DNA of 59,807 bases from positions 1-59,807 of IMG/VR virus record IMGVR_UViG_3300028883_000009; one strand, given 5' to 3'. The notes below the pieces were generated by a model. The model was not told where the DNA came from. It saw nothing but the letters and a program-made list of their open reading frames with translations, and made no database searches. This document shows positions 14,172-52,044 of the stretch, in pieces (the first letter of the stretch is position 1; the number at the start of each line of letters is the position of its first letter). The position numbers and the translations under genes were made by a program. The stretch is from a virus.

Positions 14172-15065
14172 ATGAAAGGTTATAAGGTTTTTGGTTCGGA
14201 TTGGACATGTCAGGATTTCCAATACGAAGTAGGGCAGACATACGAGATGGACGGCAATATTGAACTGTGTTGCCGGGGTTTCCACTTTTGCAAAAACCCC
14301 ACCGACTGTTTTAATTATTATTCCTTCAATCCAAAAAACAAGGTTGCTGAAGTAGAAGCACTCGGCAATGTGCTGATCGAAAACGAAGGCAATTCGAAGT
14401 GTTGTACAAATAAAATCCACATCGTCAAAAAAATACCGTGGGACGAGGTTTTGAAAATAGTCAATACGGGTAATTACAACACTGGTTGTGGTAACTCCGG
14501 GGACAGTAACTCCGGGTACAGTAACTCCGGGGACAGTAACTCCGGGTACAGGAACTCTGGGGGCAGGAACTCCGGGGACAGTAACTCCGGGGACAGTAAC
14601 TCCGGGTACAGTAACTCCGGGTACAGTAACTCCGGGGACAGTAACTCCGGGGACAGGAACTCCGGGGACAGGAACTCCGGGGACAGGAACTCCGGGGACA
14701 GTAACTCCGGGGATTGCAATGCCTGTAACAATTCGTCTGGCGTTTTCAACTCCAAAGAACAGTCTATTTATATCTTCAACAGAAAATCCCAACTTACCCT
14801 TAATGAATGGCGAAAAAGCGAAGCATATAGCATTGTGTGCAGAATGACCACAACTGTCTGGGTTTGGGAAAGCGACATGTCAGACGAAGAAATGGAAGCG
14901 AACCCAAAACACGAAACATTGGGCGGGTATTTAAAGGTCTTTAAATATAAAGAGGCGTGGAAAATCTGGTGGGACAAGCTGGACAGCGAAGAAAAAGACA
15001 CTATTCGTGCAATACCGAATTTCAACAAAAAAGTTTTTAAGGAGATAACAGGTATAGACGCCTGA
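14172..15065 (+). CDS. DUF7666-like protein with tandem pentapeptide-type repeats
   Basis: A 297-residue product. The N-terminus (MKGYKVFGSDWTCQDFQYEV, then CCRGFHFCKNPTDCFNYY) is the domain often fused to repeats in phage proteins. Residues about 107-181 are some 15 copies of an N-S-G-x-x unit (NSGDS, NSGYS, NSGDR), which likely form a repeat stack. A folded C-terminus follows (ends KEITGIDA). Good ribosome site GGGGGT. It lies directly after the promoter-terminator unit. Function unknown. Confidence 0.75.
   Translation: MKGYKVFGSDWTCQDFQYEVGQTYEMDGNIELCCRGFHFCKNPTDCFNYYSFNPKNKVAEVEALGNVLIENEGNSKCCTNKIHIVKKIPWDEVLKIVNTGNYNTGCGNSGDSNSGYSNSGDSNSGYRNSGGRNSGDSNSGDSNSGYSNSGYSNSGDSNSGDRNSGDRNSGDRNSGDSNSGDCNACNNSSGVFNSKEQSIYIFNRKSQLTLNEWRKSEAYSIVCRMTTTVWVWESDMSDEEMEANPKHETLGGYLKVFKYKEAWKIWWDKLDSEEKDTIRAIPNFNKKVFKEITGIDA
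14491..14715 (+). repeat. 15-bp coding tandem repeat
   Basis: About 15 direct copies of GTAACTCCGGGGACA and variants (GTACA, GGAACT, GGGGGCA). The period is a multiple of three, so copies can be gained or lost without breaking the frame. The same stretch is open in other frames, including the antisense. Confidence 0.9.
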
Positions 15066-21128: not shown

Positions 21129-21452
21129 ATGGATATTTTAACGCCAAACGAAGTCGCAAAAATGTTGAAATGCTCTGAATCCTGGGTGTATACTCATGCC
21201 GACACCTTGCGGGGCACTAAAATCGCAGGGCTTTTAAGATTCCGGCAGGAGTATATAGACAAAGTATTGATGGAAGGTGAGCAAAATGTCACAGTACAAA
21301 GACAAAAAGACGGGGTTGTGGCGTTACGACTTTCAGTACAGGGGCGAGAGATGGACCGGCAGCGGCTACAAAACCAAAAAAGCAGCCGCAACCGCAGAAA
21401 GGGAAAGAAAGCGACTGTTACAGAGATCGCCGACAGACATAACCTTTGGTGA
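21129..21452 (+). CDS. xis: Excisionase-like HTH protein
   Basis: A 107-residue product. Residues 1-50 (MDILTPNEVAKMLKCSESWV, then KIAGLLRFRQEYIDKVL) are a MerR/excisionase-type helix-turn-helix. The basic remainder is encoded on top of the first 167 bases of int in another frame, so the true Xis may only need the first 50. Its position just before int supports an excisionase. Confidence 0.65.
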   Translation: MDILTPNEVAKMLKCSESWVYTHADTLRGTKIAGLLRFRQEYIDKVLMEGEQNVTVQRQKDGVVALRLSVQGREMDRQRLQNQKSSRNRRKGKKATVTEIADRHNLW

Positions 21453-22311
21453 GTTGTGCCTGGAATATCTCGACAGCGCAAAGGCCAGAAACGGTGGGGA
21501 TTGGTATAAAATCAAACGGTGGAAGATGGGCAAGTTTTTAAAGAAGTGGAAGGATAGGGCGTTGGAAACCATAACACAGCAGGACATTGAAAAGCACATG
21601 ATTGCACGGAGCAATAGTGTTTCTGCCGGTGCCGCCAACGACGATTATCAGGACATTATACGCCCCATATTCAACTTTGCCAAAAACCACAAGTATATCA
21701 AGGAAAGTCCGTGTGTCGGAGTCAAGTTGATGCCAATGAAAGACAGAAAAAAGAAATACATTCCCCCGAAAGAGGACGTGGCGAAAGTGTTTCTTATGAT
21801 GCCGGGACACCTCAGGGATGCAATGGTCCTGATGGAACATCTTCTTGCCCGGTCCAAAGAGATATGGCGGTTAAGGATTGAAGACGTGGACCTTGACAAA
21901 AAGACGGTCACGCTCTACACACACAAAGACCGTAACGGCAATCTGCGAACTCAGGTAAAACCGCTAAACAACACGGCCCGTGAAATCCTGTTTCGGCACA
22001 TAAAGAACGCAGGGAAGGGGCAGGTCTATGTAATTGAGAATCCCCGCACAAAAAGCCATTACCGGGACCGGCACATCCTCCTATGGTACATCCGCAAATA
22101 CAATAAATGGGCAAAGGAACACGGAGAACCTGAAATAAAAGAGTTCGGGACCCACGCTTTCAGGCATTACTCGGCAAGCAAGTTGAAAGCGTTAAACGTA
22201 CCGACAATACAAATCCAGCATGGCCTTGGTCATAAGAACCCAAGCACGACAGAGCGTTATCTGCAACTTCTTGACTATGACATATCTGGTATCGTGGAGA
22301 TGTTAGAATAA
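21286..22311 (+). CDS. int: Tyrosine integrase
   Basis: A 341-residue recombinase that would insert the phage at tRNA-Leu. The N-terminus (MSQYKDKKTGLWRYDFQYRG) is an arm-binding-type domain unlike lambda's; a SAM-like core-binding domain follows at 55-150. Catalytic residues are R189 (ARSKEIWRLR), K near 214 or 225, H290 and R293 (GTHAFRHYSA), H316 (GLGHKN) and nucleophile Y325 (TTERYLQ). The ATG at 21286 has GGAAGGTGA upstream; a GTG at 21277 is possible. attP begins 55 bp after its stop. Confidence 0.93.
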   Translation: MSQYKDKKTGLWRYDFQYRGERWTGSGYKTKKAAATAERERKRLLQRSPTDITFGELCLEYLDSAKARNGGDWYKIKRWKMGKFLKKWKDRALETITQQDIEKHMIARSNSVSAGAANDDYQDIIRPIFNFAKNHKYIKESPCVGVKLMPMKDRKKKYIPPKEDVAKVFLMMPGHLRDAMVLMEHLLARSKEIWRLRIEDVDLDKKTVTLYTHKDRNGNLRTQVKPLNNTAREILFRHIKNAGKGQVYVIENPRTKSHYRDRHILLWYIRKYNKWAKEHGEPEIKEFGTHAFRHYSASKLKALNVPTIQIQHGLGHKNPSTTERYLQLLDYDISGIVEMLE

Positions 22312-28136: not shown

Positions 28137-28527
28137 CTATGCTTCCCTTCCCGAATCGTTTTATGTGGTCTGGTTTGAATACTGTTTCCTGTAAAATGGC
28201 AATCAGTTCATGTACGTGTTTCCGTGCTTCCTTTTTCCGCTTTTTTGCTGCACAGTCCTCAATCGGGGCGAACATTCCTTCAAGCGTTTCGTGGAACGCA
28301 CATTCACGGAGTTTGTAGTTGGTCGGTTTTTCCTCTCCCCAGTCGGTAGCAAGGGCAACGGCTGCGTTCTTCGCTTCATCGTCATAATACACGCACGACA
28401 AACAGGCAACATCGGTAAGACAAAACGTCCAAAACAGGTGTTTCAGTCCGAAATGCTCAATCCAGTACTCGCACTCTTTCTTGAATATCTTGAGATGCTT
28501 GTTGGTACAGGTGTATTCTCTGCTCAT
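28129..28527 (-). CDS. HExxE-type hypothetical protein
   Basis: A 132-residue product. RECAFHETLEGMFAPIED carries HExxE, a metal-binding helix seen in a family of small phage and prophage proteins of unknown role, and the N-terminus (CTNKHLKIFKKECEYWIEHF) agrees. A peptidase is possible but not shown. It overlaps the lipoprotein gene by 4 bases. Confidence 0.55.
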   Translation of the reverse strand: MSREYTCTNKHLKIFKKECEYWIEHFGLKHLFWTFCLTDVACLSCVYYDDEAKNAAVALATDWGEEKPTNYKLRECAFHETLEGMFAPIEDCAAKKRKKEARKHVHELIAILQETVFKPDHIKRFGKGSIDA

Positions 28528-28844
28528 TCTTCTGCCGGTAATACAGTTGTTTGTTTTGTGTCTGACGGGTTTATCTCGTACTGAAGTGCTCCCGATGTGG
28601 CTACTTCCTTCCCTAGTCCAAAGACAGTTTTGAGGAAATCCGTAATCGAAAAAGGTTTGGTCGTGTCGTTTATGGTGCTTACGCCCGATACCGTACCGTT
28701 GTCAAACGTCATGTCAAAGCGGGTTCCGGTACCCTGAAACTGTACGGGTCTGTTCATGGAATCGTACTGTACATGAACCGTGAACTTCGGCGCACAAGAT
28801 ACAAAGACCGCCAGTAATACACATATGGTGAGGGTTTTATACAT
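28524..28844 (-). CDS. Lipoprotein, possible o-spanin
   Basis: A 106-residue product. Residues 1-17 (MYKTLTICVLLAVFVSC) are a lipoprotein signal with the lipobox ending VSC. The mature part is polar. It is in the lysis region, after the transglutaminase-like gene, so it could be an outer-membrane spanin or an exclusion lipoprotein. o-Spanins are usually shorter and Pro-rich, so this is uncertain. Confidence 0.55.
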   Translation of the reverse strand: MYKTLTICVLLAVFVSCAPKFTVHVQYDSMNRPVQFQGTGTRFDMTFDNGTVSGVSTINDTTKPFSITDFLKTVFGLGKEVATSGALQYEINPSDTKQTTVLPAEE

Positions 28845-28867: not shown

Positions 28868-29401
28868 TTACGGGGTGACAACGCTCTGAATGAACATCTC
28901 GGTGTCCATCATTATAATGTGTGTGCTGCCCAGTCGTCTTGCCCAGTCGTCACCGTCCATATCGGTCATAGAGCCGTTACTCCACATAACGTTGTCAAGG
29001 TCACGGTACACGAAATGCCACTTGGTCTTATAATTTTGCATCTGCCCATTTCGTAACTGCACGAAATCGTAGATGTCACCACCACGGATTATCTCGTAAA
29101 GCAGCAGACAGAAGTCTTCGCAGTCCCCGTACCCCTCGATTATCATCACCCACGGGGGTTTGGCGTGGTCAACTTTTTCCGAACGGTACTTGATACCCCC
29201 CAGGGCGTTTTCAAGAGCCTTTGCCCCGTGATTAATATATGTCTGTCGTAGGATTGCGAGTTTTTCAAGGGCTTCTTGTTTGCGGGACTGATATTTAATG
29301 CCGTAGTACATCTCGTAGGCACTGGTGATGTTTCGCCATGCCTGAAAAATAGCGGCAAGGGCAAGCTCGTTTGGGTCAAGCAGGTTTATGTTGTCTCGCA
29401 T
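28868..29401 (-). CDS. Transglutaminase-like Cys protease-type protein
   Basis: A 177-residue product. IIEGYGDCEDFCLLLYEII (Cys in GDCEDF) and KTKWHFVYRD (His) followed by NVMWSNGSM match the Cys-His-Asn/Asp order of bacterial transglutaminase-like cysteine peptidases. The N-terminus is helical. It lies with other papain-like genes, and may act on wall or cell-surface targets. Confidence 0.65.
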   Translation of the reverse strand: MRDNINLLDPNELALAAIFQAWRNITSAYEMYYGIKYQSRKQEALEKLAILRQTYINHGAKALENALGGIKYRSEKVDHAKPPWVMIIEGYGDCEDFCLLLYEIIRGGDIYDFVQLRNGQMQNYKTKWHFVYRDLDNVMWSNGSMTDMDGDDWARRLGSTHIIMMDTEMFIQSVVTP

Positions 29402-29437: not shown

Positions 29438-29965
29438 TTACCTTTGCTTTTGCACAATAATTTGCGTTAACTCCCCACCCAACCATTCGGGCAAATCACC
29501 GGGGCGTGGTGTCTTCTTGCGGGGTCTGACATATCCGCAAAGTATCATCTCGTCAAAGACAAATTCAGAGCAGATGTAGTTTGACGCATCGTGGTTGATG
29601 CGACCGAGCATGTTGAGGAAAAGACCCTTGTAGTCATATCCTTTTGTGATGGAGCATTTGTGAAGGGCATCGGCAAGGATTATGGTTCTCTGTGCGTGGG
29701 AAAGCGGAACAGACAAATGAAAGACATTGCCTTTATATCCCCTGCTTCGTTCAGAAAGTGCCGTGAGTTTCAGACCGTGTGTCAGGGCTTCTATGAGGTA
29801 CACCCTTTCGGCAAGTGCCTTGTCGTGGAACCGCACTACCAACGAGGCGTGACTGTATTTCGACCACAGCCTGATTGCCCTGCTGATAATGCCACTTCCC
29901 TGCCACAAAATGCAGTCACCCGTCTGAATGGTGGGGCGTAGTTCATTGTACGTTTTTTTGGTCAC
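29438..29965 (-). CDS. Permuted papain-like (YiiX/NlpC-type) hydrolase
   Basis: A 175-residue product from a GTG at 29965. GDCILWQGSGIISRAIRLWS starts the fold, SKYSHASLVVRF holds the His, and NYICSEFVFDEMIL the Cys, in the permuted order His then Cys. Members hydrolyse peptide or acyl bonds in cell walls or lipids. In a lysis-region neighbourhood a wall role is plausible. It overlaps the upstream gene by 23 bases. Confidence 0.7.
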   Translation of the reverse strand: MTKKTYNELRPTIQTGDCILWQGSGIISRAIRLWSKYSHASLVVRFHDKALAERVYLIEALTHGLKLTALSERSRGYKGNVFHLSVPLSHAQRTIILADALHKCSITKGYDYKGLFLNMLGRINHDASNYICSEFVFDEMILCGYVRPRKKTPRPGDLPEWLGGELTQIIVQKQR

Positions 29966-30705: not shown

Positions 30706-30871
30706 TTTTTAATTCCCCTAACCATTCTTCCAAATCTTCCCACGTTGCCCTCAACTGCCCACGGGAATAGTCGCTTATCCCCTTCTTGTGGCAACGGTTG
30801 CAGTAATACATCTGCTTCAGGATGATATTTCTGATTTTGTGCTCAATCATGTTTAATTCATCTGATGTCAT
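30692..30871 (-). CDS. Small zinc-binding protein before endolysin
   Basis: A 59-residue product (MTSDELNMIEHKIRNIILKQ) with YYCNRCHKKG. Its start overlaps the upstream stop (ATGA) and its end overlaps the endolysin start. Function unknown. Confidence 0.6.
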   Translation of the reverse strand: MTSDELNMIEHKIRNIILKQMYYCNRCHKKGISDYSRGQLRATWEDLEEWLGELKNETD

Positions 30872-31338
30872 ATGTGTGCATCATAAAGCCGTGTGTACGG
30901 CGTGTTACCATCGTTTATCTTTACCACCCCATCGGTGCAGAGACAGAAGCAAAACTCATGCGCCCATCCTGGTGCCATTCCCCGAATCGTGCAAACAGCG
31001 CAACCTGGAACCGCTGCTTCCAATTTGCTCCTGTACCACCTTGTACTTCGGTTGCAGTCGAAAACGGACTGAGCGTTGTATTTCGGGAGTTGTGGCGGGG
31101 GGCAGTTTGCCTTGATCTCTGCCAACTTCCACTCGACTTCCGCTTGCGGATAGGTAAGGTAAAACGTATCTGCCCTGCCCATTGCCCATTCCACACCCTC
31201 ACTCCACTGAGAAAACACGTACCATTCGCACCAGTATTTTGCCTCTGCCGATGTGATTGACTGAGCGTTGTCATACGTCAGCGGTACGGGTTCAAGAAGG
31301 ACTCGGCCCTTGTGGAATAATGCTTTCCAAAGGTTCAT
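30868..31338 (-). CDS. Possible transglutaminase-like protein
   Basis: A 156-residue product (MNLWKALFHKGRVLLEPVPL). The end has CAVCTIRGMAPGWAHEFCFC then DGVVKINDG, which resembles the His-containing half of transglutaminase/papain-like folds, but a matching catalytic Cys is uncertain. ATGA-coupled to the tail-fibre gene. Confidence 0.5.
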   Translation of the reverse strand: MNLWKALFHKGRVLLEPVPLTYDNAQSITSAEAKYWCEWYVFSQWSEGVEWAMGRADTFYLTYPQAEVEWKLAEIKANCPPPQLPKYNAQSVFDCNRSTRWYRSKLEAAVPGCAVCTIRGMAPGWAHEFCFCLCTDGVVKINDGNTPYTRLYDAHI

Positions 31339-32714
31339 TTTTCAACCACCTTTGGCGTACATTCACAGTTTTCAAGTGCTCCAACTCTGCCTATCAGATC
31401 ATTTATCTGCTGTTGCTGAGTTAGGTTCTGATTGAGTAGGGCTGTTTTGTCGGCTTGAAGTTGATCAACTTTGTCTGATAACTGTTGAACAGCTTTAAAA
31501 AGGACTGGAACAAGTTCTGCCTTCGCTATACCATAGTATGTTTCATTATCATTATTGACTGTTTCGAACATTCGTTTAGGGATAAATGTTGATATTGCTT
31601 TGGGGTAAAATTCCAAAACATCTTGTGCCACAAACCCTGTGCGATTATCTGTACCGGCTTCTGTATAATCGGACACTTTTATTTTCTTAACTAAATCAAG
31701 CCCATCAATCCCTGTATCTCGGATGTTATCTTTTAACCTTTCATCCGATGAATCAACAAGTTGAAAAGTACCACCATTATTTTCGATGTATCCCACAGAG
31801 TTTCCATCACCATCAAATGCATAAAAATACAATGTTTGACCACTTCCATTATCAGCCCCCGCTTGTACCTCAATGCCGTAACGATTAGCATTGTTGCCAT
31901 CATTAAAAAACCTACCAACATAATCAGATTCAGCGTTGTCAACTACATCTAGTGCATTTCCTGGACTCGCAGTACCTATGCCTACGTTGCCAGTATCGCC
32001 TTCAACAACAAGTTTACTAGTATCCACCGTGAAATCATCCCCGGCATCACTCCCCAAATCAACATTCACACTCGTGTCAGCGTCACTCGCAATCGTGGCA
32101 AGGGAAATCTTTCGCACATCTACAATATCCTTGTCGTTTATGTCTATGCCATCGTTGAAGGTCTGTGTGACGGTGAAGGCATTAGCCACATCGTTCTTTG
32201 TGGTGTCGGCATCGTAGGCTTGAACCGTTACACCAAGATCGGCATTTTCCAGCACCATTGAGGTGGTGGCACTTATCATGTCAAGGTTGTCTGTGCTAAC
32301 ATCTGAAGCACCAAGAACCTTGCCCGTGCTGTCAATGTATGCCACGGTGTTGGTGTTTGCACCGGTTAGGGTGACGCCTACGTGGGTGGGTGAATCCGTG
32401 GTTGCCATTCCCTGATCTTGCCCGTCAAGATGTGCAAGTTCTGCTGAAGAAACCGCCGTTCCTGTTATCTTGCCGGTAGCATCTGTAATGAGGGCAGAAC
32501 CCTTTGTGAGATATGTCATGCTCGGCTGTACCTGAAACGTCCATGCCCCCGTTACCGATTCATCTTGTGACAGGTTCCCGTACTGTGTGTGGTCATCATC
32601 GGTCAATCCGTCAAGCGCACCGTGATCCGTCTTGCCGACAGGTTTCACCCGCACAGCATCGGCAGTTGACACCATGAAAAGCAGGATTAGAAATGCGTAT
32701 AATATCTTTTTCAT
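31335..32714 (-). CDS. Tail fibre/spike with S74 chaperone and signal peptide
   Basis: A 459-residue product from the ATG at 32714. Residues 1-20 (MKKILYAFLILLFMVSTADA) look like a Sec signal. The body has fibre-type repeats (GALDGLTDDDHTQYGN, then VTLTGANTNTVAYIDSTGKV). From about residue 320 comes the peptidase S74 chaperone: DSSDERLKDNI, GLDLVKKIKVSDY, TGFVAQDV, then a coiled coil. S74 domains fold trimeric fibres and cut themselves off at the Ser. A secretion signal on such a protein is unusual. Confidence 0.8.
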   Translation of the reverse strand: MKKILYAFLILLFMVSTADAVRVKPVGKTDHGALDGLTDDDHTQYGNLSQDESVTGAWTFQVQPSMTYLTKGSALITDATGKITGTAVSSAELAHLDGQDQGMATTDSPTHVGVTLTGANTNTVAYIDSTGKVLGASDVSTDNLDMISATTSMVLENADLGVTVQAYDADTTKNDVANAFTVTQTFNDGIDINDKDIVDVRKISLATIASDADTSVNVDLGSDAGDDFTVDTSKLVVEGDTGNVGIGTASPGNALDVVDNAESDYVGRFFNDGNNANRYGIEVQAGADNGSGQTLYFYAFDGDGNSVGYIENNGGTFQLVDSSDERLKDNIRDTGIDGLDLVKKIKVSDYTEAGTDNRTGFVAQDVLEFYPKAISTFIPKRMFETVNNDNETYYGIAKAELVPVLFKAVQQLSDKVDQLQADKTALLNQNLTQQQQINDLIGRVGALENCECTPKVVEK

Positions 32715-32724
32715 GTTTTCCCCC

Positions 32725-33201
32725 TTACTGCACCGCATGGATTATCATTTCAAGCAGCATTACGCCGGTGTTGGTGTTCGTGTCGTCATTCTTAATCTTC
32801 ACACCAATATCGTCTGTTGTGCTGTTGTCACGGTTCATGTAAATCAGGTTCAGGTCGTTGTCAGACATGGAACGGTTAATGCCGTCATAGTCATATATCT
32901 CGTACACACTGCCCTCGTAACTGCCCGATGTTTTGGTATAGATGCTCAAATCATAATCATCGGAATATGAAGACGTGGGACAGGCAATGGAGATGTAGTC
33001 AATCATGCCCTTCTGAAACGGCAAATCAATTGTCTGTAAATCACCCGTTGTGTTTGACTGAACAGAGGGGATGTAGGTCTGAATAACGTACACCTTGTCA
33101 AGCACCCTTAGTATGTCTGTGTCTGCCGGTGTTAACGTTCCCCCGAAACACACGCCGCACATGAACAGAAAAACCGTTATGCTGATTAGTAACTTCTTCA
33201 T
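32725..33201 (-). CDS. Exported protein with signal peptide
   Basis: A 158-residue product. Residues 1-20 (MKKLLISITVFLFMCGVCFG) are a signal peptide. The mature part is beta-rich (YISIACPTSSYSDDYDLSIY). It lies between the ejection protein and the tail fibre and is one of five such proteins. Function unknown; surface or virion protein. Confidence 0.7.
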   Translation of the reverse strand: MKKLLISITVFLFMCGVCFGGTLTPADTDILRVLDKVYVIQTYIPSVQSNTTGDLQTIDLPFQKGMIDYISIACPTSSYSDDYDLSIYTKTSGSYEGSVYEIYDYDGINRSMSDNDLNLIYMNRDNSTTDDIGVKIKNDDTNTNTGVMLLEMIIHAVQ

Positions 33202-33220: not shown

Positions 33221-33271
33221 TAAAATAAAAAGACCACGCCTATTGAAAGACGTGGCCTTAATGCGTGGTCT
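33221..33271 (-). terminator. Terminator after polyvalent protein gene
   Basis: On the minus strand AGACCACGC (33271-33263) pairs with GCGTGGTCT (33239-33231), followed by a T-rich run (33230-33221). It separates the ejection genes from the fibre and lysis unit. Confidence 0.8.
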
Positions 33272-33295: not shown

Positions 33296-36200
33296 TTATG
33301 CTATGTTGCCGAGTAATGTATTGCCCCTGTATCCGTATCGTGGTCGTTTGGGTCTGGCACGGGGTCTGACACGACCACGGGACTTTTTCTTCTTCTTTTG
33401 AGATTCCTTTAGAAGTTCATAAAAAGATTCCTTTTCACCACCCTTAATCTTTTCAAATGAAACACTAGCGGCATCATCTTTGCTTTTTATGTATTGCTCT
33501 GCCAGGTCAAAGGCGTGTTTCATTTCTTCTTCACTAAGTTTGTTTTCAACTTGTTTTTTTAGGTTCTCAACCCTTGTCTTAAATTCACTTGAAAGCTCGA
33601 TATATCTATCTAAATCCTTTGGTGAACTTGCCCGTAACGATTTGGTGAAATCAGACTTTAGAGATTGAAGTTTATATATCACCCTTCTTTCAACGGGGTT
33701 TCTCTGATACATAAAGACAAAAGGCCATATGGCAAAATCCCATATCTTATCAGAATTTTTATAAAGAGCCTTTGCCGCTTCCTTTTGTGTCGTTTCCGGT
33801 TCGTCAACAAGAGGTTTGGTTATCTTGACTATTTCGCCAAAAGCATAACGGGAGAAGTCCAACAACTGTATTGGCAATGGGTTAAACGGGTTTGTGATCT
33901 GCCCCCCGCCCGTTCTTTCGTTCTTGGCTATATTGATAGCAATTTTATAGACAGGGTGCATTAAATAAGATAAACCCTTAAACTCCTGTTCCCCGATTGA
34001 CATATCATCCCGCTTTTTAAGAAACCAGTAGTAGTATTTCAGGGGAAGGTTCGCCGGGTGTGAGAAGGTAACAACAACTTCCTTTTCCCCATCGTCTGTC
34101 TGCACTCGCTTTACATACTTTCTGCCCCACTGGTCATCATCCCATCCGTTCATTTTCATTAACAGGTCAACACCTATATTAATCCCGGCAGTTGTCAGTA
34201 GAGCACCGGCATAGGCAAGGTGTTTTCTATCAACGTTAGTCATTCTGCCGGTAAACGCTTTGCCTAATGTTTTGGGCAGTTTGAAAGCACTTTCAAGCAT
34301 TTTCCCGTAAAACTTGCCCATACAAATTTGAAATGTGGGGGTGAAAAACAGTTTATTGAGAATCTTTCTCGTTTTGGGTGGAACACTTGCATAGTCTGCG
34401 TGTGCCTGTGCCGCTACTTGTGCTGCATCCCTTGCGCTATACCCCTTGTCTCTGAGATATTCGTATGTTGTAAACCTAACATATTTATCTCCCTCCCACG
34501 CAAAATGCCATGACAGGTTGTAGACGTCTTTTATAAGATTTGTCGGGTTGTACCATTTCCCCACATGGTTCTTTATAACACCAACAAGATTTTTGCTTTC
34601 CTTAACGTCTGCCAACTGGTTTTTGAAATGGTTTAACGGGTTGTCGTACGGGGTTGAAAGCAGTCCGTTTTCAATCGCTTCATAATATCTCTTGCCCCGC
34701 TGATTTACGGTCTTTATGCCACGGTAAATATCTTTTCCCACCTTGTATGGGTTGAGCGTTCTCAATCCCCTTATCATCACACCCTGAACAACGTCATACA
34801 TGGGCATAATAACGGGGTTGTAAAACTGAAACATCTTTGCCGTGCTCATAAACACACCAATAACGTTTTCTTCACCCTTGAGCATTGACATATAATCTTG
34901 CAGGTATTTGTATGCTACCGGCTGTATGCGGTATTTTCTAAGTGTTGGAAATTCATCACCGGCCTCCACCCAGTCGGGGTGTGTCGGGTTTTCTTTTATT
35001 TTCTCAACCAACCCGTCTTTTATCATGGCATCTTTAATGTCTTTAAATGCCTTCTGTCTGAACACGTACCGGGTTACATACCCAACAGAGTCAATTATAT
35101 TGAACCGTTGTTCTGCTTCTTCAAGCGTTTTACCGGTTGCTTTTGATATGGTTTCAACAAGGTCGTAGGGGTCAATGGTTTCACGTCCTTTAATTTGACT
35201 AAAACCACCCTGTAAAAGAACCTGTTTGTATGCTTTCGGGTCTGTTCTTTTTAACTCATCAAAGATTGCGCCAAGCGGGATATGTGCATATTCAAGTTGC
35301 CTTAACCGTACAATATCGCCCTTGAGTTTTGATATTTGACTATAGAGTTTATTCTTATCAACTGTTAAGAGTTTTTCATCACGCAGTCTTTCCTTGTGTT
35401 GCTCTATGGTCTGTTCAATTCGTCTGATGTGGCTCCAGGGCCAGAGGTTTTCAAGTACCTCCCATTCCTTTAGGAGTGCTCCCATTTGGTCAAAATATGC
35501 CCGTATCGGTTTTGCCTGCTCCTGTAATTGGTCGAATTTGCCGGGGTGTTTCTTTTTAAACTTCTGTGAATTTGAAGCCACAAAGAGAAGTGCTATCTGA
35601 TCATCTTTCGGCAGTTTTGAATATTCTTTAACAGCGTCTAATGCCCGTTCATCGGCAAGCTGCTTCTTGCTTACCATCGTTTTAAGGGTAAACCCCGTAT
35701 CTTCGGCATCAAGTTTCCTAAACGGTGCTTCAACACTGAATGTTGCCTTTAGTCTGTCAAGCAGGGTTTCTTCATCGGGTATTATCCTGTTTAGGGTTTC
35801 CCGTACTTCTTCTTTTGGTGTTGAATCGTCTTTTAATTGTTGTATGAGCTTCTTTCTTGCCCCTTCAATGGTATCGTCCTTTACACCAAGACTCTCAACC
35901 TTTCCACGTTTTTTATCTATTCTTACAGCCTTAAATCTTGCTTTCTGGTATGGACTGCCACCCTTGTCAGGTATAAACCTGACATTTTCCATATTTCTCA
36001 TTTCCCGGTATGCCTCCACCGCCTTATTAGCGTTTGCCGTGGCAAGACCAACGTTGTCTTTGTACTGTGCCTTCCTGAGAAGGTGGTTTTTCATGTGCTC
36101 TTTAAATTCAACGCCCTTCTTCACCGCTTCTGCTTCAAGTTTTGCCATGAGTTCGAGGAAGGCGTTGTTTTGTGGTGAGTCAACCGCTTCTTTCGTGCTG

Positions 36201-39200
36201 AAACTCGTACCCCCCTCATACGTGACAATCGCATCTTCAACAGGTATGTTTTCGCTTGAGTAGGGTGGTGTCTTTGCCCGTTCTTCTGCGGTCATGTCTG
36301 CACGGGCGGCGGTGTCACGGGCCTCTATTTCACCGGCAAGACGGCGGTAATAAGAATAGGGGTCCATAATATCAGGGTCATTTTCAAGGTCTTTTACAGT
36401 CTGGACAAGAGCATCATATTGCCTTTGCATTTCTTCGTATTCTTTTTGTGTTTCGGCATTGTTTATTCTTTTTCTTGCCTCTCTTAGACCGTTTCTCTTT
36501 ATGTCTTTAAGTGTTTTTTGTTTTACAAGGTCTTTAAAATATATCTTCGGATTAGGACTCCCACCCCTTGCGAACCCCTCTCTCTCCTGTATGGCGTGTT
36601 GGATTTCGTGGAGAAGAATTGTACGCAATTCATCATAGTTTTTTGCTACAACCTTTATGGTTTTACCGTTATATTCGCCGCCACGTTCTTTGCCGAAAAA
36701 CTTATCAATCTCATCACGTATTTTTATACCAACCGGGATTTCTGCTGCTTCGGGATATTGTTTATATAATTCTGGATGGTTTAAAATATGTTTCAGTTTT
36801 ACTCCGGTTTTGCTTGAATCAAGGATTACTTCGCCCGATTTATCAAGATATTCTTTTGCTTCATCTGCTATCTTCGCCTTACTATCATCAATCTCAAACC
36901 GTTCCTTCTTGTCATACTTGCCTTCAAATACCTTCCCGCCCTTCTTTGCTTCTTCAAACGTGGTTGCCTTGCCACCCACAAGCATACCGTGTTCGTTGGA
37001 AATGGCGTTCTTGGCAGACAGGTACAACTGACGTGCGATTCTGCGTACCCTCTCCCACGCCTTGCCGAGTGCTTCGTGCATTGCCTTGTACCACTCGCTG
37101 TACTTTGTCTTGCCGGACTCGTACACATGCCGAGCGAGGGTGTTGAGGTCGTCACCTAGTTCTTCCAACGTCTTCTGAAGGGGTGCTCCTTCAACGTCCA
37201 TTGAAAGACCGATGTGGGGTCGCTCTTTGTAGTAATTGTCTATATCGTTAAGTATTTTACGGGGTGATGTTCCAATATCATATTGGTGCGATTCTGTGTT
37301 TGCAGCATACATATAATCGTCTTTTTCTTTTTGTATCCCACTTGAAAGGTCTAAATAAACCTCACCATTTAAAGACGATATAAGTTGTTGCAGTACCCTT
37401 CTCTGTGCTTGGTTTGGGGCGTTTAAAAGATGGATAGACCCACTATTACCGTCAATCCTTATATTCCCAAGTTGCATAAACTCATACATGTGCAGATCGG
37501 TTGGGGATGATACCTCCCTGTGGTCAAGACTTCTTCTTGATGTGCCACTACCCTGATTTTTCCCCGAAAGGTCAAGCATGGTGCCACGGGGTGTTATATA
37601 TCCGGCAGATTCAAACGACTTTGTTAAACCAAAATATCTTGCTGCTTTCCGCTGTATAGAATCAACTTGTCTTTGAGTATCACTTTTTTGATGTTCACCA
37701 AGTTCAAGAACCTCTTTAAGCGTTTCTCCGTGTTCATCTCCCCAACCATTTTTGCGATGGTCATTGGTTTCCTTAAAAAACTTTTCCCACCTAAAACCAG
37801 AATCTTCACCACCAAAACCCTTCCGCTTCATGCGTGTGGCGATTTTCTTCCACTCCCGTTTTGTAATTCCACCTATGTCTGTTATAACAACATTGCCAGC
37901 ATCGTTTATGTGTGCTTTTTCAGGTTTACTGCTAGGCGGTTCAATCCTCTTACCTTGCTCGTCAACGTACTTTATCGTCAGACCGCCCTTGTCTTTGGAG
38001 TAGTCAATAACAGCGTCTTTCAGCTTGTCAAAGTTGGAGGCGATGCGGGAGGTGGTGGCGGGGATGTTGGGTGTTGCTTTTACTTGTAACTCATCAAATA
38101 TTGGTTTTTGGCCAGTTTTCCGTTCTATCAAGTCTGCCGCTGCATCAAGGTCGCTTGATATGTCATCTTGATATTTTTTAACCCTTCTTGTGATTGCCGC
38201 ATTACTTGACGCTTCTCTGATAACAACACCGTCAAGCCTTTTTTGTTCTTCCGCAACAATGCCCTTGGTTATTTCAGCAAGTTTATCATATAACTGCTTT
38301 GCGTTTTTGTCTGTTATTGCCGTTTCATAACGACCGTATCCAACATGCATCCTTTTAGAGTAGGCGTTCCAAAGCTGTTTCCTTGCACTTATTACTTGTG
38401 TAAGCAGATTACGGTTAATGTCCCATATCTGTTCTTTGGCAATGCGTTCGCCACTCTTGCCCTCTGCAAAATGTGTAACACACTCACTACCAACAGCCAT
38501 TGTCCATTTTTTGTTGTCATTCTGTAACCAATAGTATTTCTTAATGCGATGACCACATAGTTGGCACGTTTCTTCGCCTTGGAACAACGATGGTGCGTTT
38601 TTGTATCCACTCGGAAAATCAAAACTTGGCATCATGGTCATACCACCACCGTCTGTTTCAACAGCTGTTTCACCGCTAACGGGTATAGCTGACCATTCGC
38701 TAATATCCGTTCCCATGTGTTTCATGTTTTCGGATACAGCTTTATCGTAGGACATTCCTATGGGTTTTTCTTTGGTATCAATAGACAACTGTTCTTTCGG
38801 TACGGGTTTCTCAAACTCAAAATCTTCCCCGCCCGTTATGCCTTCTTCCGGCATTTCAGACTGAACAGTTAGGAGGTCTTGCTGTGTGGGTTTCTTCTTT
38901 TGCTTCTTAGCTGATTGCTGCTTTAGGGTAAGGGGTTCTCCTTGGGATTCTTTTTCTATTGCTTCAGCTTCACGTTTCCATTTTGTTTCATCAGAACGAA
39001 ATTCGTCTAATTCTTCGGCCTGGTCGTTGAGCCAATCTCCGAGTTCGTTGACTGTTTCTGAGACTTCTTCTTCGGTAAGAATCCCATTTGCCACGCTTTC
39101 TGCATTAACTTCGCTCTGTACAGATTTTTCATGTGTTCTCGCAGTTTCGTCAACTGCTGTGGCGTTAATTTGTCCTTCATTTATTAACTCCTGCTTGACA

Positions 39201-42200
39201 TAATATTCATATTCCTGCTCTTGAATATCGGCTTCTAAATTATACCCATAAGTATCTTGATTGTCAATAGAAAAAACACCCTCTTTACCTTCTATTGACT
39301 CACGCATTTTCTCCATAAAGTCGTTTAGACTAGCAGACTCAGGTAGATACCCCGCCTCAACAAGAGCTTCACGCATATAATCAAGACTCATTCCCTTACC
39401 GTCTTTTCGCAAAACCCTTGTATATCCAATCTGTGTGTTTTTTTGCTTGTCTTTGGCTAAGTCCGATATGGTCGGCCCCCACTTCCCGTGAACTTGGTCA
39501 TAATCAAGACCACCCCTTTTGGCTATCCATGTGAGCATTTCATCTTTTGTGCTGTCTGGCTTGCGGCGTTCCTTTGCCCGTTTCTGCGCCTCTAAACTGC
39601 GTAATGCTTTTTGCTCTGCGACATCCTCTGTTACTTGCTCCCCTTGCTTATCAATTAACCTGTGTGCTTCCTCTATCGCTTTTTGTTTTGCACCCTTACC
39701 TTTAAAATAACTAGTTTCAATGCGGTTTTCACCATAGTTGAAAGCACGGATTCCCCGTTTTGTTTGCTGTGTAAAAAAGGCAACACCCTTGTATGGTTCT
39801 ACCTCTTTCATCCCAACATTTCTTGCTACGCCAATCTCACCACTTTTGCCAACACTTACGCCAGTTACCTTCCTTACACCCTCCCGGTCAAGGGGTTTGG
39901 CTGGCACCGCCCCTTCAGACGGTGCCTCGACTCCTTGTAAGCTTGGTACCTGAGCCGTTTGAGCCGTTTGTGACCCATTAGTCATCTCCGCAGGCTTCAC
40001 TTCGGGGGCGGGGGCGGGTTTGGGGGCGGGTTCAGTACCACTAGCACGTTGTACCGATTCTAAATATTCTTCCCTTGCACTTTCGTAATCGGGAAATTCT
40101 TTTATTCCAACAACTTCGTTTGAGTCTGCGTCAAATATCCTTATAACGCTACTTGTGTCTTTACGATTACCAGAAGCATAAAGTTCATAATCAACACCAT
40201 CTATCCTTTGTGCATCAACGACAACACGCTTTTTCCCCATTACTTTTTGTTCGCTACCAACTCTTTTCTTTTCACCCCCCACCGGCTTTTCAACGGGTGC
40301 TGAAACTTCGGGGGCGGGGGCGGGTTTGGGGGCGGGGGAAAGGTCATCCCTTGCTTTCTTATAATATCCAAGGGCGTTTTCAATGTCTTTTTGTTTAAGC
40401 GGGTCTTTCTCTTTGGCAAGATTATCTTCTTCTTCACGAATAAGCCTGTTGATGCGTGTTAATTCATCCTCTTTTTTTTCTGTTTTCTGCTCACCACCGA
40501 AAAAGGATTCAATCTCGTTCAGCTTTTCTTCTTCCGTCTGCTCCCCCACCGGCTTTTCAACGGGTGCTGAAACTTCCGCTTTGGGTGATGCTTCGGGGGC
40601 AACACCCCCCTCTCCAACGGGAGTAGCGGCACGGGGAGGCTCAATTTCCAGTTCTTTAGGGGTCGCTATGTCTGGCCGGTCTTTCTGTAATTCTGGCCTT
40701 TTCAGCTTTTCGGGTATGCCCTCTATGACCAATCTCTGCGTGTCTTCGTCAACTCCCGCTTCCTGCATGGCAACTTTCAGCTTTTCAACGCTTCTCTCAG
40801 GGGGCGTGTAGTCTTTGGATTGCGGGACTTTCCCCACATCTTCGGGTCTGATAGTCTTGGGTGCTTCTTTCTCCGCTTCTAAAATGGTGGAAACAATGTC
40901 GTCTTCAACGCCGTAGTCGGGCTTGTCAAGGTCGGCGGCTTCCTTTTCGATGATGTCACGGTTGATTTCGTCAGGGGTTTTGGCACGAACATTCTGTACA
41001 AGGTTTTGAAAATATGGGGAGTCTGTACCATATCGCCTACCAACCTCTCTTGCTATTTGCCCTTCAGTCATACCTTGATTGCGGAAACCTTCAGCAACCT
41101 GTTCAACGTCTTGCCTTACAAGACCCTTTTCTCTTACAGATAAGCGATACCACCAATCGGGGGGTTGCATATCTTTTATGTCTTTGCCCTTACCACCCAT
41201 AAGACCAAAGATACCGAGAACAGCAGCACCCTTGGCAATTTCACGGGCATCACCACCAGAAACAGCGGCATCTACACCACCAACCGCAGCAAGACCAGGG
41301 ATTCGTATAGGAAGGTTGAACTTGTTGGCAACGTGAAGAAGTTTCCCCAAAATAGTACGGTGTGCGATTGCCTTCGCCGTATCAGCAACACCACCACCCT
41401 CGCTCATTGCCTTTAACCCCGCATACATGGGGCCAGCACCAAACTCTATAACACCAGTTGGAGCACCACCAACAACAGCACCGACAATTTCCGTATCAAG
41501 TGCCCCCTTGTTCTTTATCATGCCCTCTATTGCTTCTGCATTATCGTTGTAATACTGCTCAACACGGTCAACAAGGTTCTTGGTCGGTTCCTCAAGCGGG
41601 TGTCCACTCCCCTCCATTGCCCTGTGTGCAAGTTTGGGGAAAGTGTTTGCAACACTACCCATACCCCTGTTGAGTTCGGCAACGCTTTGTAATCCATAAT
41701 CCTTTGCCTTGTCAACCACCGCTTCGGCAACGGGTTTGCTTGCCTGTGCCTGGTCTATATATGACTGCCCCCATCGTGAGTACCAAGAGGGTTCTTGTGG
41801 TTCGCCGTTTGAAATCTGTCGCCATGTGTCATATGACTCTAATACCTTTTTCATTTCCTCAAAGGGGAGGTTGTTTTCAATAGACCAATCAATAGCATCG
41901 GCAACGGGGGAACCTTGCCACATATTTTTTAGATGTTGTAAGCGTTTACTTTTAGGTATCTTGGCATATCTATAATAGTCATCCTTTGCATGTTCGGCGT
42001 TTTCCCATCTTCCACCTTGAGCATCCTTCTCAAGTTGAAGCATATATTGTTCGCCATCATTTGTGACAAACAAGTGCCTTTGGTATGGGGTGCCTCCGGT
42101 TTGGGAGGGGTGGTTAAAATCAAACCTCCCCGGTTTGCCACGGACAACAACCTCGGGACTATAGCCACCCTGTAGACGTGGGGTGACTAATTCTGATTCG

Positions 42201-42349
42201 GCAGACGCAACTTGACTGTCGTCTACAGGGTGCTCCTGTGACATTCTGAACTTGTCAAAAGCATCTGGTTCTTGGGTTTGGTAAAACCTGTCAAATGCAT
42301 CTGGTTCAGATTCTTGCTGAGATAATTCAAATTTCTCAAAAGCGTCCAT
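33296..42349 (-). CDS. Giant polyvalent (ejection) protein
   Basis: A 3017-residue protein, one seventh of the genome, last of the ejection genes. It opens with three DAFxxF repeats (DAFEKF, DAFDRF, DAFDKF). A hydrophobic stretch lies near 285-400. A zinc finger CQLCGHRIKKYYW is near 1261; a segment with RGTMLDLSGKNQGSGTSRRS near 1610; a zincin with LLHEIQHAIQER (HExxH) near 1915; an LPD38-like region (RFTTYEYLRDKGYSARDAAQ) near 2600. These are marks of large polyvalent proteins injected with phage DNA. No polymerase motif is seen. Confidence 0.75.
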   Translation of the reverse strand: MDAFEKFELSQQESEPDAFDRFYQTQEPDAFDKFRMSQEHPVDDSQVASAESELVTPRLQGGYSPEVVVRGKPGRFDFNHPSQTGGTPYQRHLFVTNDGEQYMLQLEKDAQGGRWENAEHAKDDYYRYAKIPKSKRLQHLKNMWQGSPVADAIDWSIENNLPFEEMKKVLESYDTWRQISNGEPQEPSWYSRWGQSYIDQAQASKPVAEAVVDKAKDYGLQSVAELNRGMGSVANTFPKLAHRAMEGSGHPLEEPTKNLVDRVEQYYNDNAEAIEGMIKNKGALDTEIVGAVVGGAPTGVIEFGAGPMYAGLKAMSEGGGVADTAKAIAHRTILGKLLHVANKFNLPIRIPGLAAVGGVDAAVSGGDAREIAKGAAVLGIFGLMGGKGKDIKDMQPPDWWYRLSVREKGLVRQDVEQVAEGFRNQGMTEGQIAREVGRRYGTDSPYFQNLVQNVRAKTPDEINRDIIEKEAADLDKPDYGVEDDIVSTILEAEKEAPKTIRPEDVGKVPQSKDYTPPERSVEKLKVAMQEAGVDEDTQRLVIEGIPEKLKRPELQKDRPDIATPKELEIEPPRAATPVGEGGVAPEASPKAEVSAPVEKPVGEQTEEEKLNEIESFFGGEQKTEKKEDELTRINRLIREEEDNLAKEKDPLKQKDIENALGYYKKARDDLSPAPKPAPAPEVSAPVEKPVGGEKKRVGSEQKVMGKKRVVVDAQRIDGVDYELYASGNRKDTSSVIRIFDADSNEVVGIKEFPDYESAREEYLESVQRASGTEPAPKPAPAPEVKPAEMTNGSQTAQTAQVPSLQGVEAPSEGAVPAKPLDREGVRKVTGVSVGKSGEIGVARNVGMKEVEPYKGVAFFTQQTKRGIRAFNYGENRIETSYFKGKGAKQKAIEEAHRLIDKQGEQVTEDVAEQKALRSLEAQKRAKERRKPDSTKDEMLTWIAKRGGLDYDQVHGKWGPTISDLAKDKQKNTQIGYTRVLRKDGKGMSLDYMREALVEAGYLPESASLNDFMEKMRESIEGKEGVFSIDNQDTYGYNLEADIQEQEYEYYVKQELINEGQINATAVDETARTHEKSVQSEVNAESVANGILTEEEVSETVNELGDWLNDQAEELDEFRSDETKWKREAEAIEKESQGEPLTLKQQSAKKQKKKPTQQDLLTVQSEMPEEGITGGEDFEFEKPVPKEQLSIDTKEKPIGMSYDKAVSENMKHMGTDISEWSAIPVSGETAVETDGGGMTMMPSFDFPSGYKNAPSLFQGEETCQLCGHRIKKYYWLQNDNKKWTMAVGSECVTHFAEGKSGERIAKEQIWDINRNLLTQVISARKQLWNAYSKRMHVGYGRYETAITDKNAKQLYDKLAEITKGIVAEEQKRLDGVVIREASSNAAITRRVKKYQDDISSDLDAAADLIERKTGQKPIFDELQVKATPNIPATTSRIASNFDKLKDAVIDYSKDKGGLTIKYVDEQGKRIEPPSSKPEKAHINDAGNVVITDIGGITKREWKKIATRMKRKGFGGEDSGFRWEKFFKETNDHRKNGWGDEHGETLKEVLELGEHQKSDTQRQVDSIQRKAARYFGLTKSFESAGYITPRGTMLDLSGKNQGSGTSRRSLDHREVSSPTDLHMYEFMQLGNIRIDGNSGSIHLLNAPNQAQRRVLQQLISSLNGEVYLDLSSGIQKEKDDYMYAANTESHQYDIGTSPRKILNDIDNYYKERPHIGLSMDVEGAPLQKTLEELGDDLNTLARHVYESGKTKYSEWYKAMHEALGKAWERVRRIARQLYLSAKNAISNEHGMLVGGKATTFEEAKKGGKVFEGKYDKKERFEIDDSKAKIADEAKEYLDKSGEVILDSSKTGVKLKHILNHPELYKQYPEAAEIPVGIKIRDEIDKFFGKERGGEYNGKTIKVVAKNYDELRTILLHEIQHAIQEREGFARGGSPNPKIYFKDLVKQKTLKDIKRNGLREARKRINNAETQKEYEEMQRQYDALVQTVKDLENDPDIMDPYSYYRRLAGEIEARDTAARADMTAEERAKTPPYSSENIPVEDAIVTYEGGTSFSTKEAVDSPQNNAFLELMAKLEAEAVKKGVEFKEHMKNHLLRKAQYKDNVGLATANANKAVEAYREMRNMENVRFIPDKGGSPYQKARFKAVRIDKKRGKVESLGVKDDTIEGARKKLIQQLKDDSTPKEEVRETLNRIIPDEETLLDRLKATFSVEAPFRKLDAEDTGFTLKTMVSKKQLADERALDAVKEYSKLPKDDQIALLFVASNSQKFKKKHPGKFDQLQEQAKPIRAYFDQMGALLKEWEVLENLWPWSHIRRIEQTIEQHKERLRDEKLLTVDKNKLYSQISKLKGDIVRLRQLEYAHIPLGAIFDELKRTDPKAYKQVLLQGGFSQIKGRETIDPYDLVETISKATGKTLEEAEQRFNIIDSVGYVTRYVFRQKAFKDIKDAMIKDGLVEKIKENPTHPDWVEAGDEFPTLRKYRIQPVAYKYLQDYMSMLKGEENVIGVFMSTAKMFQFYNPVIMPMYDVVQGVMIRGLRTLNPYKVGKDIYRGIKTVNQRGKRYYEAIENGLLSTPYDNPLNHFKNQLADVKESKNLVGVIKNHVGKWYNPTNLIKDVYNLSWHFAWEGDKYVRFTTYEYLRDKGYSARDAAQVAAQAHADYASVPPKTRKILNKLFFTPTFQICMGKFYGKMLESAFKLPKTLGKAFTGRMTNVDRKHLAYAGALLTTAGINIGVDLLMKMNGWDDDQWGRKYVKRVQTDDGEKEVVVTFSHPANLPLKYYYWFLKKRDDMSIGEQEFKGLSYLMHPVYKIAINIAKNERTGGGQITNPFNPLPIQLLDFSRYAFGEIVKITKPLVDEPETTQKEAAKALYKNSDKIWDFAIWPFVFMYQRNPVERRVIYKLQSLKSDFTKSLRASSPKDLDRYIELSSEFKTRVENLKKQVENKLSEEEMKHAFDLAEQYIKSKDDAASVSFEKIKGGEKESFYELLKESQKKKKKSRGRVRPRARPKRPRYGYRGNTLLGNIA

Positions 42350-48654: not shown

Positions 48655-49430
48655 TCAAGATTACCGAGATAAACCTGATAAATGTCATCTGCCGATAATG
48701 CGCTTAACCAGTAACATGCGTCATCCACATACCCTGAGAAATATGACTTTGCGTTCCAACTACTCCTGTCTGCCCCTATGTCGAAATCATCACCAATCGT
48801 ACCGTTCCATGTTGCGTCATCTGCCGTGGCTGTTGTTGCAACGGCAACCCCGTCTACATACAGGGCCGTGCTGTCCAAATCCTTCGGGTTCACGTCCGGC
48901 GAACTTGGAAGTGATGTTTCATAAGACACCGCAACGTGATGCCATGCACCGTCCCTTATGTCGGTTTCCGTAGCGTCAAGTTGCAGATATTTCCCCGCAG
49001 TCGGTTCACCAAAGAGAAACCCTAAGTACCCGCTTGCGCTGAAATAGAACTTCCAGCAGTCACCACCGATATTTTCTGTTCGCCCTGCAATTATGCCGTC
49101 TGTCGCAACGCTTGTCTTAACCCACGCTGTAAATGTCATACTGCCGTCACTTGCCGAGAAATTCATTGAACTGGGGTTTGATGCGTACAGGTAATTAGGA
49201 GAACCACCCAGTTGTACGCTTGTCCCGAATTGCCCCGACTTGTTGAACGTAGCAGACCCGCTAACCGACAAATTCACACTCCCCCAACTGTCTGTTGCCG
49301 GGGCAGAGGAATCGTCCATCTTCCACCGTGCGACACCAGACGAAACGGTTGTCCCTGTATACAGAACCGTGGCCCCCGCAAAGTCTGCAAACAAAAAAAT
49401 CAACAGTGCTGTTAAACAAATCTTCTTCAT
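48651..49430 (-). CDS. Exported LamG-like (concanavalin-type) protein
   Basis: A 259-residue product. Residues 1-20 (MKKICLTALLIFLFADFAGA) form a signal peptide. The rest is a lectin-type beta-sandwich: VARWKMDDSSAPATDSWGSV, SMTFTAWVKTSVATDGIIAG, DGAWHHVAVSYETS, YVDGVAVATTATADDATW and DFDIGADRSSW. LamG/concanavalin domains bind glycans, so it is a candidate receptor-binding protein. A signal peptide is unusual for one. Confidence 0.75.
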   Translation of the reverse strand: MKKICLTALLIFLFADFAGATVLYTGTTVSSGVARWKMDDSSAPATDSWGSVNLSVSGSATFNKSGQFGTSVQLGGSPNYLYASNPSSMNFSASDGSMTFTAWVKTSVATDGIIAGRTENIGGDCWKFYFSASGYLGFLFGEPTAGKYLQLDATETDIRDGAWHHVAVSYETSLPSSPDVNPKDLDSTALYVDGVAVATTATADDATWNGTIGDDFDIGADRSSWNAKSYFSGYVDDACYWLSALSADDIYQVYLGNLE

Positions 49431-50146
49431 TGCGTCTGATCCAGTAAATAGTCAAGCACACAGAACCGAATTGATGCGTTATCGGTCGAATCATCGGGAA
49501 CCCGGTACACACTCCACGATACCCAGTCGTCATCTGCAAAGGTAGCGGTTGGAACAAGGATGTTCACATTGCTTGTATACGTTACGGGGTTCTGTGATGC
49601 ACTTGCCGTAAAACCCGAAAGTGCCTGCGTGGTCGTTACCGTTGCCGAATTACCGGAAGATGTAACAGCGGTAAACCCCATAACCGCCCTGTCGGTTGAC
49701 GTTGTAGTGATGAAAGAGACAAGGGTAAGCGTAATGCTTGATGTAACGTCAAAAGCGGAATCAACATGATGCACGAAATTAACCGCCTGCTGCGTGGTCG
49801 GACTAAAAGACCACCCTCTCGCCCCGTTTGTATCTGCCCCGAAAAACTGCCACACCGCCCCGTTTGTGCTTGCCGCATCCACGTCTTGAATATGAAGCGG
49901 GATAGCACAAGACGTGCAATCGTTGAAATATGCGTTTGAATAGTCGGTATCGTCCCACCCGCTTGCTTTCGTCCCGCTATAATCGTGGGCAATGAGGGAA
50001 TAGAACAGGTCGTGCAGAAAAATAAAATTGTCCTGGGAATCGTCTATTACCTCATCCTGCGAATCGGTCTTTTCCGGTTTGCCGTCTTGCCATGTCGCAG
50101 CAAAAAGAAAAATACAGCTTATAAATAATATCAGTAACTTTTTCAA
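49427..50146 (-). CDS. Exported structural-type protein B
   Basis: A 239-residue product. Residues 1-17 (MKKLLILFISCIFLFAA) are a signal peptide. Paralogue of the protein at 47938-48654 (DCTSCAIPLHI, FFGADTNGARGW, SVYRVPDDSTDNASI). ATGA-coupled to both neighbours. Role unknown; possible adhesin or decoration. Confidence 0.65.
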   Translation of the reverse strand: MKKLLILFISCIFLFAATWQDGKPEKTDSQDEVIDDSQDNFIFLHDLFYSLIAHDYSGTKASGWDDTDYSNAYFNDCTSCAIPLHIQDVDAASTNGAVWQFFGADTNGARGWSFSPTTQQAVNFVHHVDSAFDVTSSITLTLVSFITTTSTDRAVMGFTAVTSSGNSATVTTTQALSGFTASASQNPVTYTSNVNILVPTATFADDDWVSWSVYRVPDDSTDNASIRFCVLDYLLDQTQ

Positions 50147-50443: not shown

Positions 50444-51079
50444 TCAACCCTGCGGTAGCGGGTGCCGTGATGTCCACGACTCCCCGGTAAACGGCATGTT
50501 TTCTTCCATTTCCTTCATCGCCTGCCAGAATTTACCGTATGCCTGCTCTGCTTTTGCCGGTTCCTCAACATATTGCCAGAACTTGTAAACCGCCCCGGTG
50601 ATGATGGGGTCGTCCCGCCATGCGATAGAAATCTCGGAATGGGTGCTGCCTGAAATGTCTGACAACTGCTTGTAAAAACCATACGTCACGGCATAGGCAT
50701 CATCTGCCGTGGGATACCCGATATACACTCTCGGCAGACCACCAGACACACCGGCAAGGCAGTAGTATTTCGGCACCCCGGTCGTAGACGGCGGGTTTAG
50801 GACAATATCTTCTGATATGCCGGGGATAAGCTCGTACACGGTTGACCCGTCATTTATATAGAACTTGTGTGGGTGTAGAAAATCGGTGTCCAGGGAGTAG
50901 ACTTTCGTCCCGGCAACCGTGTTAAAACCCGTTCCTTCATCGAAAAGGAAATCCCACTTGACGGAATTAATCTCTACCTGCGCCCAGTTAATCGCCCGTG
51001 ACTTTCTGGTTGAATATGCGCTGCCACCGATGCCGGTAAATTCTTCCAGCATAGTTTCAAGTACAGTAAAACTACTCAT
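50444..51079 (-). CDS. Head-tail adaptor-type protein
   Basis: A 211-residue product. It has a helix (RKSRAINWAQVEINSVKWDF), a beta core (KFYINDGSTVYELIPGISED) and a helical end (KAEQAYGKFWQAMKEMEENM). Size and place fit adaptor/gp4-like proteins found after the coat in podoviruses. It overlaps the next gene upstream by 8 bases. Assignment from context. Confidence 0.55.
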   Translation of the reverse strand: MSSFTVLETMLEEFTGIGGSAYSTRKSRAINWAQVEINSVKWDFLFDEGTGFNTVAGTKVYSLDTDFLHPHKFYINDGSTVYELIPGISEDIVLNPPSTTGVPKYYCLAGVSGGLPRVYIGYPTADDAYAVTYGFYKQLSDISGSTHSEISIAWRDDPIITGAVYKFWQYVEEPAKAEQAYGKFWQAMKEMEENMPFTGESWTSRHPLPQG

Positions 51080-51995: not shown

Positions 51996-52044
51996 ATGCC
52001 ACCCCAAAAAGTAGGGGGCGGGTGTGACCCCACCCCCAAACAGG

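Follow-up and report, generated by a model that had tools for sequence, protein, structure and literature searches.

The window, the whole stretch of 59,807 nucleotides analysed here, corresponds to an entire IMG/VR virus record (IMGVR_UViG_3300028883_000009) and carries a 127-bp terminal repeat, so that the genome is probably complete and circular, with a length of about 59.7 kb. It encodes a P22-type portal, an SU10-type adaptor, an SU10-type capsid protein (phrog_9953, major head; Pfam match under the cut-off), a DnaB-like helicase and, as read by eye, an integrase-like ORF at 21277-22311, a gene content that probably marks the virus as a temperate phage with a short tail. By portal, its nearest relative is L002 (79% DNA identity), whose sequence ends just before the second group of genes described below. 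A check of tRNAs gave no clue to the host.

Two groups of minus-strand genes are considered here, an S74 tail fibre with its adjoining genes and a trio within the virion operon (Table 1). The coordinates and reading frames given for them in the earlier note proved correct on an ORF check.

Table 1. Genes and features of the fibre locus and of the trio, with the evidence for each
Feature	Position	Strand	Evidence and remarks
Gene after the fibre, no signal	30868..31338	-	4-bp overlap with the fibre stop
S74 tail-fibre protein, 459 aa	31335..32714	-	Pfam PF13884; PHROG tail fibre families; signal score 7.77
158-aa protein, predicted exported	32725..33201	-	Signal score 7.06; its end lies 10 bp before the fibre start
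Terminator-like hairpin	33230..33259	-	Pattern scan only; 12 pairs, T-rich tail
Nozzle-like tail gene, 586 aa	46177..47937	-	Position and size only; tail-side neighbour of the trio
p2, predicted exported, 238 aa	47938..48654	-	Signal score 8.76; paralogue of p1
LamG/ConA-like lectin, predicted exported, 259 aa	48651..49430	-	Laminin_G_3, E=4.7e-18; signal score 7.40; A-G-A cleavage motif
p1, predicted exported, 239 aa, TTG start	49427..50146	-	Signal score 7.48; paralogue of p2
SU10-type adaptor	50444..51079	-	Pfam SU10_adaptor, E=5e-13; head-side neighbour of the trio

The fibre gene and its partner

The fibre consists of a predicted Sec signal peptide (residues 1-20), the peptide TDDDHTQY directly after it, an S74 domain (residues 323-373) and a C-terminal coiled coil. 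The S74 assignment is clear, with 34.6 bits against the 22-bit Pfam cut-off (E=2.4e-8), and the S-D-x-R-x-K motif is present as SDERLK, its S, D, R and K being invariant in the alignment with relatives; the serine and the lysine are the catalytic residues of this motif. The remainder of the protein matches phrog_5481, phrog_6921 and phrog_8443, all of them tail fibre families, and the gene follows that of a 3017-aa protein and precedes an M15 peptidase, a slot like that of T7 gp17. The 3017-aa protein itself (33296-42349, minus strand) has phrog_21376, whose function is not annotated, as its sole match, and is probably an internal or ejected polyvalent protein.

Inspection of starts and Shine-Dalgarno sites places the beginning of the fibre at ATG 32714, right behind AAGGGGGAAAAC, as likelier than the ATG at 32738 with which the ORF opens, giving an N-terminus of MKKILYAFLILLFMVSTADA followed by VRV. 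Only GTG codons, at positions 21 and 23 and lacking a Shine-Dalgarno site, could start an alternative form, so there is no sign of a cytosolic version of the fibre. From the predicted cleavage site to the end of TDDDHTQY there are only about 26 residues, whereas in other phages the open frame extends for a median of 182 residues ahead of this peptide, and no N-terminal tail-attachment family was matched in the mature fibre by Pfam or PHROG searches.

The 158-aa protein encoded upstream starts with MKKLLISITVFLFMCGVCFG behind a strong Shine-Dalgarno site. It has no Pfam match above cut-off, no PHROG match and no close relatives in IMG/VR, and its predicted fold is a low-confidence beta-sandwich (pLDDT 64) that resembles phage tail domains and CBM86, too weakly for the protein to be named. 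The hairpin listed in Table 1 lies between the gene of the 3017-aa protein and that of the 158-aa protein, and may lower the expression, or change the level, of the 158-aa/fibre unit.

A trio inside the virion operon

The three proteins encoded between the SU10-type adaptor and the nozzle-like gene begin, in order of transcription, with LKKLLILFISCIFLFAA, MKKICLTALLIFLFADFAGA and MKKILLLICCFLCLVGA, from TTG, ATG and ATG start codons. Their genes overlap one another by 4 bp (ATGA-type) and the nozzle-like gene abuts the last directly, which indicates that the trio is made along with the virion proteins; nothing resembling a promoter was found where it begins. The mature parts of p1 and p2 are 36% identical and have a CxxC in common, and the domain that they share begins within 1-2 residues of the predicted cleavage site; their signal sequences differ while the properties of these are alike. 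The trio has no close relatives in IMG/VR, and the predicted structure of p1 (pLDDT 42) gave no usable fold.

The nozzle-like gene had no family match in Pfam or PHROG searches and no close relatives in IMG/VR or INPHARED. It has an inserted FTSGGTTE...WAGGDAAGT domain in common with the tail gene at 51072-52007 (minus strand), the two flanking the adaptor/trio region, and in this segment L002 DNA matches across the two genes at 80%. When the larger proteins of the virion module were searched for family matches, with unmatched ones judged by size and position only, no other receptor-binding candidate emerged, with or without a signal.

Elsewhere in the genome, three further genes were noted: a permuted papain-like protein with a sub-threshold C92-like match (29438-29965, minus strand) and a GDCEDF...WHF protein that appears transglutaminase-like by eye (28868-29401, minus strand), both adjoining the lysis genes, and a long NSG[DY]SNSG repeat protein of pentapeptide-like type (14172-15065, plus strand), where both strands have open frames.

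Five predicted Sec substrates among the virion genes

Signal peptides were called with a rule-based scorer of n-, h- and c-regions, calibrated on 181 proteins of E. coli K-12, which at a threshold of at least 6.0 flags 28 of 28 exported, 1 of 116 cytosolic and 10 of 37 polytopic membrane proteins of that strain. The fibre, its 158-aa partner, p1, the LamG lectin and p2 are all called exported, with scores from 7.06 to 8.76, and the set shows the n-, h- and c-regions and small-x-small cleavage site of Sec/SPI substrates; those that were re-examined have no second or later membrane segment. By these predictions, the five proteins carry classical Sec signal peptides and would be cleaved and exported; the earlier note had described the fibre and its neighbour as signal-bearing and the trio as exported. 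An argument from disulphides was dropped, since cysteine counts do not differ from those of other virion proteins.

Across 250 CDS of lambda, T7, P22 and SU10, the scorer flagged only envelope, lysis and small membrane proteins, namely Lom, Bor, spanins, a holin, RexB, GtrC, SieB and small membrane proteins of T7. Not one of the roughly 60 virion genes was flagged, in keeping with the premise of the earlier note that virion proteins normally lack signal peptides. Against this background, 5 of the 18 virion-module genes of the present phage carry a signal (p=4e-4, the figure of about 60 being a hand count).

The N-terminal segments could instead be uncleaved hydrophobic anchors, keeping the proteins in the inner membrane or docking them into the tail, given that the scorer also flags the 10 polytopic proteins mentioned above and Rz spanins, which have uncleaved anchors, and that the cleavage sites of the 158-aa protein (C-F-G) and p1 (F-A-A) are weaker. 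We consider this quite unlikely, because most of the set has good small-x-small motifs (ADA, AGA and VGA in this phage), the hydrophobic cores are short, and the diverged signals of p1 and p2 nevertheless keep signal properties.

Two further genes outside this set were observed. A small protein beginning MKGIFVVLVMLLTFGTTANA followed by GLN (13573-13893, plus strand) has a signal score of 8.31, is encoded away from the virion module and is perhaps expressed in the lysogen, and a putative lipoprotein beginning MYKTLTICVLLAVFVSC followed by AP (28524-28844, minus strand) lies near the lysis region.

Signal-bearing fibres in unrelated phages

A scan of IMG/VR for the TDDDHTQY peptide returned 91 distinct proteins, 5 of which have a signal peptide (from the window, L008, L013, L042 and L123), and L003 and L004 were added through their S74 part. 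Fibres with predicted signals are thereby found in six further uncultivated phages, which include siphoviruses and podovirus-like phages, some having three or four such genes together, and the predicted cleavage motifs across L003, L008, L004, L042 and L123 are SNA, VNA, VQA, ALA, AYA and SNA, again of small-x-small type. In L003 (G001), a tape measure, a J-type tip and a signal-less 893-aa fibre are followed by three consecutive signal-bearing genes, the last encoding an S74 fibre; in L123 (G006), whose portal, protease and capsid genes are of HK97 type and which also encodes J, the signal-bearing fibre comes three small genes after J. L008 (G003) encodes four proteins with a signal: a pair that follows the capsid gene, a fibre with TDDDHTQY, and one that is fibre-like and encoded immediately behind a nozzle-like gene. 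L042 (G005) encodes terminase and portal. A signal peptide is absent from all 13 relatives, fibre or S74 proteins, that come from cultured phages. No report of tail fibres with signal peptides was found in the open-access literature, where hits that seemed pertinent were entries of reference lists or concerned endolysins. At the level of prediction, signal-bearing tail proteins of receptor-binding type are thus recurrent across unrelated uncultivated phages and not a one-off, and the proposal that several proteins of the tail region are equipped for export in the present phage is both well supported and extended to other phages.

The fibres of the window and L003 share stretches of 139 bp and 134 bp at about 90% DNA identity, with no further similarity between the two records in the sequence compared. 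The fibre stop lies in each case within a 4-bp overlap with the following gene, and these following genes are homologues of each other (22% identity, E=2e-5 in a single comparison). A two-gene cassette thus seems to move between otherwise unrelated phages, which points to hosts that are shared or related. At its beginning, by contrast, the window fibre resembles part of the L008 fibre (37%), giving a mosaic in which a signal peptide is retained while modules change. The L003 record also contains a cluster of glycosyltransferase-, sulfotransferase- and methyltransferase-type genes (L175, about 27.5-38.9 kb), as judged by eye.

Signal-bearing S74 proteins are also encoded on MAG contigs of uncultured bacteria, a Chlorobiota (L197) and a Nomurabacteria (L059), so the combination of S74 and signal peptide is not unique to phage fibres. 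Together with the roughly 42% identity at which the S74 modules of phage and Patescibacteria proteins align, this would allow the signal-bearing S74 genes to be recent cargo, captured from host genes for surface adhesins and with no part in phage biology. Such a cargo reading appears very unlikely to us, as the genes are placed inside the late regions of seven phages, the closest relative of the fibre is the phage fibre of L003, with a conserved neighbour gene, and the trio is coupled to virion genes.

Discussion

The predicted export of these proteins probably means that they act, or join the particle, outside the cytoplasm. The reading that we tentatively prefer, while stopping short of calling it probable, is that the receptor-binding proteins, once exported by Sec, complete their maturation outside the cytoplasm and encounter the virion when the cell lyses. 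The S74 fibre, its 158-aa partner, the LamG lectin and the p1/p2 pair would be made as Sec pre-proteins alongside the virion genes, would cross the inner membrane and lose their signal peptides, and would fold and trimerise in the periplasm with S74 as the fibre chaperone. The remainder of the particle would be built in the cytoplasm, and lysis would then bring the exported proteins together with the freed particles, to whose tails they would bind.

Several observations favour such joining of the virion: the excess of signals in the virion module over the reference phages; the coupling of the trio to virion genes and the lack of a promoter-like site at its start; the failure to find another binder, with the fibre in a slot like that of T7 gp17; the recurrence of signal-bearing fibres at tail-fibre positions in L003, L123 and L008; predicted cleavage that, in p1 and p2, coincides with the beginning of the common domain or lies beside it; and the bacterial signal-bearing S74 proteins, which indicate that the domain occurs on exported proteins. 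This reading is weakened by the mature fibre, which begins nearly at TDDDHTQY and has no recognisable tail anchor, by L003, whose additional signal-less fibre means that the exported ones may be extra, and by the dilution of fibres that assembly after lysis would entail.

Export alone does not prove virion membership, since exported non-virion proteins of tail regions are known, and a different fate for these late adhesins or lectins is possible, if rather doubtful: they might never join the virion, and on the infected cell might instead cover the receptor that the phage itself uses, or cross-link debris, so that superinfection is prevented and progeny are not lost on fragments; or they might serve as surface adhesins. 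The earlier note suggested both joining of the virion after lysis and display on the host surface, and the sequence evidence fits either purpose. Precedents for exported phage proteins that act in this way are T5 Llp (PMC9586334) and lambda Lom, which is encoded directly after J, in a region that in L123 also houses the signal-bearing fibre; a fibre devoid of a virion-anchor domain, the lectin fold of the LamG protein and the retention of a normal fibre in L003 would fit as well. The lack of an apparent separate receptor-binding protein in the window genome speaks against masking, as do the coupling to virion genes, seen in the 4-bp overlaps of the trio, where morons would be set apart, and the number of proteins, five being many for this role. 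The 158-aa/fibre unit, for its part, is preceded by the terminator-like hairpin.

Returning to assembly at lysis, we raise with considerable reservation the idea that the phages concerned form a class with a two-compartment build, in which head and tail core would be cytoplasmic, whereas fibres and lectins would be Sec-exported, would mature in the periplasm through S74 and would be added to the particle only at lysis.

In the textbook view, phage assembly is cytoplasmic. If the fibres are exported first, the morphogenesis of tailed phages would gain a new step, which could account for the safe production of sticky binders of lectin type; if the proteins mask receptors instead, they would represent a new fibre-based exclusion strategy. 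Either way, signal peptides help to recognise the receptor-binding proteins of some uncultivated phages, and annotation that takes a signal peptide as the mark of a host gene would misfile such proteins. Tail fibres and exported phage proteins are already known; the present fibres add a signal-bearing form and, possibly, a new assembly route, if the proteins do join the virion.

Comparison with known systems

Among exported phage proteins, lambda Lom likewise comes from the tail-fibre region, between J and stf, and L123 uses the same post-J region, but Lom is an outer-membrane protein, neither fibre nor S74, and Pfam searches gave no match to Lom or another outer-membrane family. T5 Llp, which jams FhuA from the periplasm (PMC9586334), is similarly sent to the periplasmic side during infection and provides the model for receptor masking; unlike the proteins described here, this superinfection-exclusion protein is a small lipoprotein and not a fibre or lectin, and a lipobox-type cysteine is absent from the predicted cleavage sites of the fibre, the LamG lectin and p2. 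The signal-bearing endolysins of fOg44 and the J5a clade (PMC8878798) are also late phage proteins exported by Sec, yet they are lysis enzymes and not of structural type.

The Chlorobiota and Nomurabacteria proteins have the signal peptide and S74 in common with the fibre, but lie on bacterial contigs and otherwise differ in architecture; they make periplasmic fibre maturation plausible but also allow an origin of the signal-bearing form from host adhesins. A further comparison is with the phage tail fibres and spikes that have S74 as an intramolecular chaperone, such as the endosialidase type and the L-shaped fibre of T5, with which the fibre agrees in the C-terminal-side S74, the S-D-x-R-x-K motif, the PHROG tail-fibre matches and the genome slot, the difference being that here a signal peptide replaces the virion-anchoring domain.
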